Source of the DNA: an uncultured Mediterraneibacter sp. | GTDB taxonomy: Bacteria; Bacillota; Clostridia; Lachnospirales; Lachnospiraceae | Reading direction: 5' to 3' | Assembly: GCA_944381935.1 (NCBI GenBank) | Contig: CALWMN010000019.1 | Coordinates: 1-51,730 of the forward strand | DNA length: 51,730 bases | Notes under the pieces: generated by a model | Seen by the model: the letters and a program-made list of their open reading frames with translations, nothing else | Database searches by the model: none | What the model was told of the DNA's origin: nothing | Position numbers and translations under genes: made by a program | Shown here: positions 3,163-7,682 of the stretch, in pieces | Layout: every line of letters begins with the position of its first letter | Position numbering within the stretch: position 1 is the stretch's first letter

Positions 3163-4203
3163 ATGTCAATAGGGAAAGTGATTAGAAAATACAGGAAAAT
3201 CAGAAATTTAACACAGGAAGAAATGGCAGTTCGGCTGGGAGTAACTGCTCCGGCAGTGAATAAATGGGAAAATGAAAATTCTTATCCCGATATTTCCCTG
3301 TTAGCGCCAATAGCCAGATTACTGAATATTTCATTGGATACGCTGCTGTCTTTCCGCGAAAATCTGACAGCAGAGGAAATTAACGAGATTGTTGGCGAAG
3401 CCAATCAGAAATTGAAAGAAATATCATATAATGAGGCATTTCAGTGGGCAAAGAAACAGTTGGAACAGTATCCTAATTGTGAGAAACTGATTTTGAATAT
3501 AGCAATCTGTTTAGAAGCGTATCTTGTAGTGCATGATGTTCCAGATAAAACGGAATACGAAGAATATTTATGCTCTTTATATATTCGCCTATTAAATAGT
3601 GAGAAGGAAGCAATACGCATAAGCGCAGCGGGTTCTCTGGTTGAATTTTACAGCAGGAAAAAGGATTATGAGAAAGCAGAAAAATACCTGGAGTATTATT
3701 CTATAAAAAACCCGGAACGAAAAAGAAAACAAGCGCAAATATATGCGGACACCGGACGGATACAGGAAGCCTATAAGGCCTATGAAGAACTTTTGTTTAC
3801 CGATTACCAGAGAACAAGCGCTGAATTTCATGGCATGTATTTGCTTGCACTGCGAAATCATGACATGGAAAGGGCGCACAAATTAGTAAAAAAACAGGAA
3901 GAACTGGCAAGATGCTTTGAAATGGGAAAATATCATGAAGTTGTGTGTGGACTTGAAATTGCAACAGTGGAACAAAATGCTGATGTGGTAATTGAAATCA
4001 TGAAAGAAATGCTTTCTGACATCGAAAGCATTGAAAGTTTCAGGCATTCCTGGCTTTATGAACACATGGAATTTAAGGAAATGAAAAAAGACTCTTTGGA
4101 AGAATTTAAAGATAATCTTCTAAAATGTTTTCGGGATGAAGAAAGCTATGGCTTTTTGAAAAGAGATGAGCGCTGGGAAAAATTGGTTGAACAACGGCAG
4201 TAA
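3163..4203 (+). CDS. XRE-family transcriptional regulator with TPR-like C-terminal domain
   Basis: Residues 5-60 form a lambda-repressor-like helix-turn-helix (LTQEEMAVRLGVTAPAVNKWE). The remaining ~285 residues are helical with TPR-like spacing (for example YEKAEKYLEYY and IQEAYKAYEELL), as in regulators that bind a peptide or partner through a helical-repeat domain. It starts at ATG 3163 behind AGGAGA. It stands alone between the mobilisation module and the toxin-antitoxin loci, so a role in this accessory region is possible but its target is not evident. Such HTH plus helical-repeat proteins are abundant in Lachnospiraceae. Confidence 0.8.
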   Translation: MSIGKVIRKYRKIRNLTQEEMAVRLGVTAPAVNKWENENSYPDISLLAPIARLLNISLDTLLSFRENLTAEEINEIVGEANQKLKEISYNEAFQWAKKQLEQYPNCEKLILNIAICLEAYLVVHDVPDKTEYEEYLCSLYIRLLNSEKEAIRISAAGSLVEFYSRKKDYEKAEKYLEYYSIKNPERKRKQAQIYADTGRIQEAYKAYEELLFTDYQRTSAEFHGMYLLALRNHDMERAHKLVKKQEELARCFEMGKYHEVVCGLEIATVEQNADVVIEIMKEMLSDIESIESFRHSWLYEHMEFKEMKKDSLEEFKDNLLKCFRDEESYGFLKRDERWEKLVEQRQ

Positions 4204-4498
4204 GGTTCCCTTTGCGTTACGCAGCAGTAAAAAGTATTGATTTTATAAGCGAAAAGCAGATTGCGTAGTTCTATGTTTTCGGCTATAATATTCACGTGAT
4301 TACAAGTGGTTTGCCTGATACTATTTTGATACTAAAAAATTCGCAAACGCTGTGTAATGGGAAAAAAGCATAGAAAATGAGCAAAGATATAGAAAAATAC
4401 TAAACGTACATGTTTAGTATTTGAAATAACTTGCCGAGTTTGAGTGATTATATAAATAATTTGAAGATTTTGACATATAATTTTAGAGGGAAGTTCTA
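4204..4498. other. Gene-free stretch with an 11-bp inverted repeat
   Basis: No coding region is supported here. The stretch is A+T-rich. It contains AAATACTAAAC-GTACAT-GTTTAGTATTT (4395-4422), a perfect 11-bp dyad resembling operators bound by dimeric repressors (TetR-family sites often look like this). No matching regulator gene is adjacent. Confidence 0.5.
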
Positions 4499-4527
4499 TT
4501 GACTTTCCGGTTTGTGCTTGCTAGAAT
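4499..4527 (+). promoter_or_regulatory. Promoter of the CptI antitoxin RNA
   Basis: TTGACT (4499-4504), a 17-nt spacer and TAGAAT (4522-4527). Transcription would start near 4534, only a few bases before the first antitoxin repeat at 4539. That placement fits a dedicated antitoxin RNA promoter. Confidence 0.75.
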
Positions 4528-4538
4528 ATAAGCATAAA

Positions 4539-4666
4539 GAAAGTTTACCACTGACCGATATGTGGTATATAAATGGTCGGGTTGAAAGTTTACCGCTGAC
4601 CAATATGCGGTATATAAGTGGTTGGGTCGAAAGTATAGTCCTTCGCCGCAAGGCGAGGGACTTTTT
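4539..4666 (+). ncRNA. cptI: CptI-type antitoxin RNA: 2.1 tandem 45-nt pseudoknot repeats plus terminator
   Basis: Repeat 1 is 4539-4583, repeat 2 is 4584-4628, and a third copy stops after GAAAGT (4629-4634). Each unit holds two interleaved stems. Stem 1 is TACCAC/GTGGTA (4546-4551 with 4562-4567) in unit 1 and TACCGC/GCGGTA (4591-4596 with 4607-4612) in unit 2. Stem 2 is CCGA/TCGG (4555-4558 with 4577-4580) and CCAA/TTGG (4600-4603 with 4622-4625). The order stem1-stem2-stem1-stem2 is an H-type pseudoknot. The units differ at six positions, and four of these are two compensatory pair changes. Known type III antitoxins are tandem repeats cut by their toxin into pseudoknots that inhibit it. 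The ~45-nt, about two-repeat layout is that described for CptI. Confidence 0.85.
4638..4666 (+). terminator. Terminator between antitoxin RNA and toxin gene
   Basis: The stem runs from GTCC-TTCGCC through loop GCAA to GGCGA-GGGAC (4638-4661) and is followed by TTTTT. In type III toxin-antitoxin loci a terminator here lets most transcripts stop after the antitoxin, with limited read-through into the toxin gene. Confidence 0.85.
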
Positions 4667-4685
4667 CCATAATGAGGACAAGTAA

Positions 4686-5159
4686 ATGAAGAAAACAGGA
4701 TTTTATATTATCAAAGATAAATTTTTTGAAGATATGCCAGATCCGTATCTTAAAGGAAATAAGGCGGGGAACAGACCGCATTATTACTGCTTTGAGGATA
4801 CAAGTACCGGGATATACTGGATGATACCATTGTCTAGCCGCATTGATAAATATAGACGGCTTATAGAGAAAAAGGAAAAAGCCGGGAGACCTTGCGACAT
4901 TATCCATATTGTCAAACTGGATGACAGCCGGGAAAGCGCATTTCTGATACAAGATATGTTTCCGATAACAGAAGAATACATAGAACGGGAATACACGATT
5001 GCCGGAAATCATTTGATGCTGACCAGTGAGCATACCGCCAGAGAGATTGAGCGAAAAGCGAGAAAAGTTATGGGGATGTTGAAACGTGGCATTAAATTTA
5101 CTCCAACGCAGCCAGACGTTATGTCGATATTGAAGAAACTGAAGGGGTGCAGCCAGTGA
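4686..5159 (+). CDS. cptN: Type III toxin-antitoxin system toxin, CptN/ToxN-like endoribonuclease
   Basis: A 157-residue protein of the size and sequence type of CptN toxins, endoribonucleases of the ToxN/AbiQ superfamily that cleave cellular mRNA and process their own antitoxin RNA. The N-terminal segment MKKTGFYIIKDKFFEDMPDP and the internal YWMIPLSSRIDKYRRLIEKK are characteristic. Basic patches (EIERKARKVMGMLKRGIKF) fit RNA binding. It starts at ATG 4686 with GAGGAC upstream and follows the antitoxin terminator by about 20 nt. The context (repeats, terminator, toxin) is strong independent support. The family assignment is from memory of related sequences and gene order. Such loci can act in plasmid/element maintenance or as abortive-infection phage defence; which applies here is unknown. 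Confidence 0.85.
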   Translation: MKKTGFYIIKDKFFEDMPDPYLKGNKAGNRPHYYCFEDTSTGIYWMIPLSSRIDKYRRLIEKKEKAGRPCDIIHIVKLDDSRESAFLIQDMFPITEEYIEREYTIAGNHLMLTSEHTAREIERKARKVMGMLKRGIKFTPTQPDVMSILKKLKGCSQ

Positions 5160-5461
5160 TTCCAACTTGGCTCTGTTTTGGCTCTAAAAATTTGGATCGG
5201 TACAAATACAAGAAGAAATTTTGAGTAATGAGAATAATAAAATCATTAAAAAGTATAGAAAAGTAGCCAGTTCAATCTATCCGCCGAGGAGTTCGAGTAA
5301 CTCAGGGATTTGGTTAATCAATGCTAAATTGCTATAACAAAAAAATTCATATTGAAAACTCCTTCCTGGAAGCTGTAAAAATCTACGTTGAATTTTACAG
5401 CTTTCTGTGTATAATAAAAGTAGCAGAAATGATATGAAATCAGGGAAGGAGCTGAAAGAAT
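5160..5461. promoter_or_regulatory. Intergenic region with operator-like dyad and promoter of the Phd/ParE pair
   Basis: No gene is seen between the CptN-like toxin and the next pair. AAGCTGTAAAAAT (5370-5382) faces AATTTTACAGCTT (5391-5403), a 13-bp dyad with one mismatch. A promoter overlaps its right arm: TTGAAT (5388-5393), 16 nt, TATAAT (5410-5415). Antitoxins of the Phd type usually repress their own operon through such overlapping dyads, so this is the probable autoregulatory site. Confidence 0.65.
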
Positions 5462-5710
5462 ATGCCCAATATTTTACCAGTATCTGATTTGAGAAATTAT
5501 AATGAAGTCCTGAAGAACTGCCGCAAAGGAGAACCAGTGTATCTGACGAAGAATGGCAGAGGACGTTTTGTAGTTATGGATATTGAAGATTACGAACGTG
5601 ACCGTGCAGAGAAAAAACTTCTGATAAAGCTGCAAGAAGCTGAAGACGCAGTGAAAGACGGCGAAGGTTGGCTGGATCTGGATGAATTGAAAGCACTTGT
5701 GGGGGAATAG
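5462..5710 (+). CDS. Phd/YefM-family antitoxin
   Basis: An 82-residue protein with the Phd/YefM N-terminal DNA-binding fold (SDLRNYNEVLKNCRKGEPVY, then LTKNGRGRFVVMDIEDYER) and an acidic C-terminal tail that would wrap the toxin. It starts at ATG 5462 behind GGAAGGAG. The toxin gene follows after one base, the usual antitoxin-first order. It probably both neutralises the toxin and represses the operon through the dyad at 5370-5403. Confidence 0.85.
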   Translation: MPNILPVSDLRNYNEVLKNCRKGEPVYLTKNGRGRFVVMDIEDYERDRAEKKLLIKLQEAEDAVKDGEGWLDLDELKALVGE

Positions 5711-5711
5711 G

Positions 5712-6011
5712 ATGTTAAAATTGCGGATTAATCCGATTGTTGCAAAGGATTTAAAGAATATCCGGGATTACATTGCAGAAGATAACGAGGAATATGCAGC
5801 AAAGACCATAAAGGAAATTTACGGTAAATTTGAATATCTCCGGATGTTTCCGGGAATGGGTTCAGATCTTTCTATGCGAGTCAGCTTTCGGACAGACTAT
5901 AAATATGCGATATGGGAAGAGTATACGATTATCTACAAAGCAGGCGACAAGTATTTAGAGATTTACCGTGTGATCAACCGGTATCAGGAAATTACAAGAA
6001 TTTTTGAGTGA
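5712..6011 (+). CDS. RelE/ParE-family toxin
   Basis: A 99-residue RelE/ParE superfamily protein. It has the N-terminal helix pair (AKDLKNIRDYIAEDNEEYAA), then LRMFPGMGSDLS and the C-terminal strands (YAIWEEYTIIYKAGDKYLEIYRVINR). RelE members cleave mRNA on the ribosome and ParE members poison gyrase; the sequence alone does not decide between them. I use ATG 5712, whose ribosome binding site (GGGGGAATAGG) lies in the end of the antitoxin gene. An upstream TTG start at 5697 would overlap the antitoxin and lacks support. Its 3' end converges with the acetyltransferase gene, leaving 17 nt. Confidence 0.85.
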   Translation: MLKLRINPIVAKDLKNIRDYIAEDNEEYAAKTIKEIYGKFEYLRMFPGMGSDLSMRVSFRTDYKYAIWEEYTIIYKAGDKYLEIYRVINRYQEITRIFE

Positions 6012-6869: not shown

Positions 6870-7682
6870 TTATTTATTCAGGGCTTTATATAATTTGTCT
6901 CTTAAATCTCCGGCATGGCTATATTCCAGGTATTCGATACTTCCCAAGTCGCTTATGGTGCCGGTATTTTCATCTTTGATTATAATTACAGGTTTTCCTA
7001 AACCATACACCAAACCTTGTTCCAACATAACATTAGGATTAAGTCCGGATATGTTTATGATTGCCATAGTGCAGCTTTGTATCTGATAACAAATTTTACA
7101 CATTATATCTTTATTCGTGATTTCGTTATCTGCCTTATAATGCTCATAACCTAAAGCATCCAGCGCAGGAACAATACCATAGTTATAACTGTCTAAATAT
7201 TCCGCAGAAAATGGCATGGCGATAAAAATTTTGTTGCGTTGATATTGAGGATTCATAGGACAACCGTCGATGTCTAACTTAAAGCATTTGCGCATCTGGT
7301 GCGGTGCAATTTTTCCTTCTGCCATTTTTAAATGATTAGTTTCCATATCTGATTCGATTTTACTGATTAAATTAGTTAAATTGTTTAAAAAGAATTTAAC
7401 AGTGGCATTTCGTACAGTTTTTTGTGTAGATGATAAATCATAAATATTGTACGATATATGTGCAAGATTAAGATTGGTGAGAGTGTTATATTTATCCAGT
7501 AAACGATTATACTGTTTGATCCACGTTTTATAAACTTCTGTATGTACATATTCATTGTCCTTTGAATAAATTTCTGCTTTATCATGTAGAGTTTTGATTT
7601 CAAATGCTAATGCGCCCATATCCTTAAAATCCATTTTACTATCCCCCAGACGTATTTTAATAAATTTGTTTATTTTCTCCAT
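6870..7682 (-). CDS. Coiled-coil protein with nucleoside deoxyribosyltransferase/TIR-like C-terminal domain
   Basis: Residues 20-125 are helical and charged, probably a coiled coil or oligomerisation region. Residues 150-270 form a Rossmann-like domain: KIFIAMPF (151-158), then GIVPALDALGYEHYKAD, then MAIINISGLNPNVMLEQG with a candidate catalytic Glu221, then LGKPVIIIKDE. These motifs are those of the nucleoside 2-deoxyribosyltransferase-like group that is structurally related to TIR domains. Proteins with such domains may act on nucleotides or NAD and are often found near defence genes, but no activity can be assigned here. The start at 7682 is 13 bases inside the end of an upstream remnant. 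ATG 7634, with GGGGGA six bases upstream, is an equally good start. Confidence 0.6.
   Translation of the reverse strand: MEKINKFIKIRLGDSKMDFKDMGALAFEIKTLHDKAEIYSKDNEYVHTEVYKTWIKQYNRLLDKYNTLTNLNLAHISYNIYDLSSTQKTVRNATVKFFLNNLTNLISKIESDMETNHLKMAEGKIAPHQMRKCFKLDIDGCPMNPQYQRNKIFIAMPFSAEYLDSYNYGIVPALDALGYEHYKADNEITNKDIMCKICYQIQSCTMAIINISGLNPNVMLEQGLVYGLGKPVIIIKDENTGTISDLGSIEYLEYSHAGDLRDKLYKALNK

Follow-up and report, generated by a model that had tools for sequence, protein, structure and literature searches.

The closest described relative of the locus analysed here is CptIN of Eubacterium rectale, a type III toxin-antitoxin system with a solved structure (PDB 4RMO; PMC4627078). Passages of PMC4627078 describe CptI_Er RNA as an H-type pseudoknot, report that CptN_Er cuts its RNA and assembles with it into a two-plus-two ring, and state that a single CptI_Er repeat alone neutralises CptN_Er. 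The ToxIN systems of Pectobacterium and Bacillus and the TenpIN systems share the type III logic of repeats, terminator and RNase toxin, but their toxins belong to families different from CptN. The present locus lies on the + strand of a window of 51,730 nucleotides, the whole stretch of DNA that we analysed, from an uncultured Mediterraneibacter sp. (contig CALWMN010000019.1 of assembly GCA_944381935.1). It resembles the E. rectale system, as presented in those passages, in its repeat-terminator-toxin layout, its 45-nt unit and its H-type pseudoknot, in contrast to ToxIN, for which passages of PMC5086642 give units of 34–36 nt and hexameric rings. With this locus, a family of known structure gains a further member, probably from a gut Lachnospiraceae.

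The toxin gene, cptN (4686–5159), encodes an endoribonuclease of 157 amino acids, identified by a family profile and by a solved homologue. Its product matched NCBIfam NF047359 (CptIN) at 186.4 bits, against a cut-off of 90, and 4RMO_A, the solved CptN of E. rectale, at E=2.4e-79. An earlier note, made from the letters alone, had proposed a CptN-like toxin in a type III locus of the CptIN kind and had staked this on CptN/ToxN similarity in a profile search; both scores bear it out. Like E. rectale CptN, the window toxin has the active-site residues named in the passages of PMC4627078, those of the adenine site mapping to D80, S84 and Y103, and we read a Ser-Ser-Arg motif at residues 50–52 as the triad of that paper. 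Among the pocket and contact residues named there, I73, I74, L88, I106, V129, M132 and F139 are kept and I60 is replaced by Leu. Judged by L009, a relative whose toxin agrees with 4RMO_A in 149 of 152 aligned residues, the window toxin is ∼76–77% identical to E. rectale CptN. That the locus is TenpIN or ToxIN instead of CptIN can be dismissed with near certainty: the TenpIN profile does match the toxin, but at 15.6 bits, far under the 90-bit cut-off, and no ToxIN profile match was reported at E up to 0.1. Searches of the toxin against Pfam and PADLOC, and of the CptI RNA against Rfam at gathering scores, gave no match, which we interpret as gaps in those libraries. Within the window's draft genome, no second CptN was found at E up to 0.01. 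One extra match to the CptI pattern, with 3 mismatches, lay inside a long frame that, judged by eye, encodes a von Willebrand-type protein; we took it as chance, not as a second CptI copy. An intact-looking CptIN type III toxin-antitoxin module is the best explanation of the whole locus, and we put its probability at about 95%. The module itself is ordinary.

Tandem Repeats Finder reported an array of period 45 and 2.1 copies at 4539–4634. Using the published E. rectale cut site, GA^AAG, we set the borders of the two 45-nt CptI antitoxin units at 4541–4585 (unit 1) and 4586–4630 (unit 2). The earlier note had correctly seen two 45-nt tandem copies, in a frame (4539–4628) that is two bases out of register; its third partial copy exists as a remnant of just ∼6 nt (AAGTAT, 4631–4636), not a third unit, which by its sequence supplies the last GA^AAG cut context. 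An intrinsic terminator follows at 4637–4662, recognised by sequence match as a stem-loop of 11 pairs and then TTTT, and the region 4634–4670 folds at z −6.2. This terminator stands between the array and the toxin gene, giving the family order of repeats, terminator and toxin that had been claimed, and a ribosome-binding site (GAGGAC, 4674–4679) was located by eye. The consensus promoter that had also been claimed is present at 4499–4527 and ends 13 nt upstream of unit 1. It consists of TTGACT, a 17-nt spacer and TAGAAT with an extended −10, matches 10 of 12 consensus positions, and is paralleled by a similar motif at the corresponding position in many relatives. Because promoter matches in 4200–5300 were near the chance level (5 observed, 3.9 expected), we base its standing on this position and on its recurrence in relatives. 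An inverted repeat at 4488–4508 overlaps the −35 box and is a possible operator. Among 75 loci with units, 11 had no TTGAC in range, leaving 64 readable; at one fixed spacing, at least 5 of 6 arm positions matched in 43 of these 64, with a mean match of 4.7 against 1.8 at six other spacings, and in 5 loci both arms depart from the commonest sequence yet still match. This inverted repeat is absent from L009, the E. rectale-like locus.

Unit 1 is identical to the published CptI_Er single repeat in 45 of 45 letters, the single-repeat primer in Table 2 of PMC4627078 being its exact reverse complement (45/45); at position 6 a text passage of that paper gives C, and its own primer, like the window, gives U. 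Because of this identity, the H-type pseudoknot of unit 1 is already known. Unit 2 differs at unit positions 10, 17, 23, 33, 38 and 43 (window 4550/4595, 4557/4602, 4563/4608, 4573/4618, 4578/4623 and 4583/4628). Four of these six differences are compensatory, as the earlier note had stated: pair 10-23 changes from A-U in unit 1 to G-C in unit 2, and pair 17-38 from G-C to A-U. Six random changes on unit 1 give at least two compensated pairs with P 0.0009, or 0.0036 when only transitions are allowed.

Covariation over 44 distinct units agrees with the same fold. The ten pseudoknot pairs were formed in 98.6% of 440 cells, and changes on both sides of a pair numbered 37, compared with 10.2 in shuffles and no more than 3 when the pairing was slid. 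Pairs 10-23 and 17-38 account for 34 of the 37; most of the other pairs hardly vary and therefore say little. Further pair types (11) were not above shuffles (mean 10.3; 163 of 500 shuffles reach 11). The H-type pseudoknot claimed from the two window repeats is thus upheld by the identity of unit 1 with the published repeat and by this covariation, and the 45-nt unit has the one-base L1 and A-rich L2, as indicated by unit 1 identity and the pair counts. Ordinary nested folding did not recover the pseudoknot from either unit; it gave another hairpin for unit 1 (−9.6 kcal/mol, z −0.7) and a hairpin for unit 2 (z 0.06).

We collected 96 loci, the window included, whose toxins share 50% identity or more across the best match; removing duplicates left 83. 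They were drawn partly from the best 80 of 153 matches and partly from loci at 30 places, so the sample is skewed to near kin and its rows are not independent. Upstream of the toxin, two units were present in 67 of the 83 loci, one in 8 and none in 8. Two single-unit loci (L006 and L065) lie at contig ends; six no-unit loci have less than 100 nt upstream, and the other two, L011 and L099, carry other sequence. L011 may be decayed, its toxin match beginning at residue 17 with no CptI unit in 350 nt upstream, as may L075, L083, L089 and L104, which have stops within the matched toxin stretch.

We read unit type from pair 10-23, with A-U as type 1 and G-C as type 2. Across the 67 two-unit loci, window included, the order was 1-2 in 59, 2-1 in 0, 1-1 in 2 and 2-2 in 6. 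The two unit versions are not peculiar to the window; they recur in the same order among the sampled relatives. The second compensated pair is less regular, because 17-38 gave mixed readings over the same loci (unit 1/unit 2: G-C/A-U 42, G-C/G-U 14, A-U/A-U 5, G-C/G-C 4, G-U/G-U 2). In the 59 heterotypic loci the units differ on average by 5.07 positions within a locus; between loci, unit 1 differs by 0.93 and unit 2 by 1.99, and unit 1 is therefore the more tightly conserved. Letters at two of the six differing positions recur as well: G33, which the window's unit 2 has where the solved RNA places an A of its A-minor twist, occurs in 26 of 59 second units (window included) against 2 of 59 first units, and C43 in 22 of 59 against 0 of 59. 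The CptIN locus of Clostridium sp. Marseille-P3244 (L034) is closely similar, with a toxin 95% identical, an identical unit 1, a unit 2 with one difference (A33 in place of G33), and the same promoter hexamers and terminator stem. We found no description of ordered unlike units in the literature searched, which comprised passages of PMC5086642, PMC8860590, PMC6315513 and PMC5772629, with the Blower 2012 survey lying outside it.

As a reason why the units differ, we give about an even chance to inherited drift, in which an old duplicate pair diverged once and compensation kept the fold, leaving a difference without a role. One ordered pair of types in 59 of 67 loci fits such a single origin, two-of-a-kind arrays exist, as in L009 with its two identical type-1 units where the window has type 1 and type 2, and one type-1 repeat is enough under laboratory conditions (passages of PMC4627078); set against this, the first unit equals the published sequence in 45 of the 67 loci, yet the toxins of heterotypic loci range down to 72% identity with that of the window. 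On a quick toxin tree, moreover, the 8 two-of-a-kind loci require 8 label changes, as if each had arisen separately, and even so the mixed state predominates. Branch support in this tree is weak, below 80 on 50 of 74 inner branches; it holds 78 rows (5 dropped, one short and four with stops), five of them flagged long, namely the two-of-a-kind loci L009, L010, L013 and L111, and L012, which is not.

A guard against deletion is conceivable though doubtful: unlike repeats would recombine less, so that loci with differing units keep two units longer. Six of the 8 single-unit loci are not explained by a contig end, and L055 and L101, each with one type-1 unit, have C43 in it, as expected of a between-unit recombinant, since in heterotypic loci this letter is seen in second units and in no first unit; however, 5 of 67 loci retain a pair of identical units. 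Very improbable is the proposal that the difference stops each unit from pairing with its neighbour during RNA folding. Exchanging strands between the units does create an A-C mismatch in one stem, whichever way the exchange is made, and for all 31 distinct pairs the native precursor was less stable than unit 1 in duplicate, but the natural swaps do not stand out: of the 45 two-pair swaps that the window's unit 1 allows (natural included), 16 weaken the fold more and 40 yield fewer inter-unit pairs. Compared with unit 2 in duplicate, the native precursor was weaker for only 24 of the 31 pairs, and compared with the reversed order for 18; its inter-unit pairs were fewer than those of the 1-1 precursor for 20 pairs, of the 2-2 precursor for 16 and of the 2-1 precursor for 5, all in nested models that cannot represent the pseudoknot. 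Insulated folding is therefore not supported as an explanation of why the units differ.

It also seems unlikely, if less so than insulated folding, that the units have distinct functions and are conserved as an ordered pair, the transcript giving one of each and the natural ring being asymmetric and holding unit 1 and unit 2. Mixed toxin-RNA assembly, the idea raised in the earlier note, is as such possible. The locus raises the question of whether type III rings mix unit types and whether mixing matters, the solved complex having one unit type. The recurring ordered unlike units also offer natural, structure-preserving variants for probing the importance of individual parts of CptI.

Unlike units with swapped stems also occur in some other CptIN branches, and some other remote loci have identical stems. 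In L134, four of five stem-2 pairs are compensated. Automated detection of units gave noisy results for 47 remote loci, and a gapped comparison found pairs in 31 of them; changed stem pairs in this noisy set comprised 33 both-side, 16 one-side, 22 broken and 3 gapped, some of the broken ones reflecting, in our reading, a wrong register or a terminator match (L015, L017 and L020). By eye, the remote loci L015, L017, L137 and L138 have three units each, seemingly with different stem-2 sequences that still pair.

Taking the anatomy, homology and covariation of the CptIN module together with its recurring ordered pair, we propose how it may work. One promoter would give a short RNA of two pseudoknot units, mostly stopping at the terminator, and read-through would give CptN, the terminator presumably attenuating toxin transcription. 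By analogy with E. rectale, CptN would cut the RNA after GA at 4540, 4585 and 4630, and the two 45-nt products would keep it inactive, most probably within a ring built from two toxins and two RNAs, in which case a single transcript could provide enough RNA for one ring. Both units are predicted to keep the same fold despite the two swapped base pairs, and both are expected to neutralise CptN. Toxicity, and maintenance of the carrying DNA, are likewise extrapolated from E. rectale. We favour a role in DNA maintenance over phage defence because, according to passages of PMC4627078, CptIN_Er stabilised a plasmid and gave no resistance to more than 200 coliphages in E. coli.

The distribution of cptIN is patchy. 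Matches were found in 7 of 58 genomes of the genus, the window's own included, two of them (G801 and G824) only through remote or broken relatives; Candidatus Mediterraneibacter pullicola (L032) is among the loci collected. At order level, 49 of 392 genomes matched at E up to 1e-8 (own included, many remotely), and a profile search at phylum level matched 6 of 398, 5 over the cut-off, own included. CptN relatives were absent from the phage records, present in 6 of 72,556 plasmid records, all below 60% identity, and represented in IMG/VR by one locus, L111. Within the fetched DNA (at least 8 kb in 38 of 82 loci, with neighbours further out falling beyond it), a shared mobile element as carrier was rejected, each of nine window neighbours occurring in just 0–4 of 82 relatives and 0 of 9 in the 8.5 kb of L034. 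Because neighbours are so rarely shared over this range, cptIN may move as a cassette.

Upstream of cptIN, an AAA_25 ATPase and a Mob_Pre relaxase (378–2975, + strand; MobV model below cut-off) suggest a mobilisable element. A helix-turn-helix protein with tetratricopeptide similarity below cut-off (3163–4203, + strand) lies upstream of the promoter and has relatives in 3 of 82 cptIN loci. Directly downstream of cptN are genes for a Phd antitoxin and a RelE/ParE-type toxin, a type II pair (5462–6011, + strand; the RelE match falls short of its NCBIfam cut-off and the ParE match exceeds that of Pfam); within the fetched DNA, both occur in 1 of 82 relatives (L104). Further on, a protein with weak similarity to nucleoside deoxyribosyltransferases (below cut-off) and to TIR effectors (6870–7682, − strand) is possibly a defence gene.
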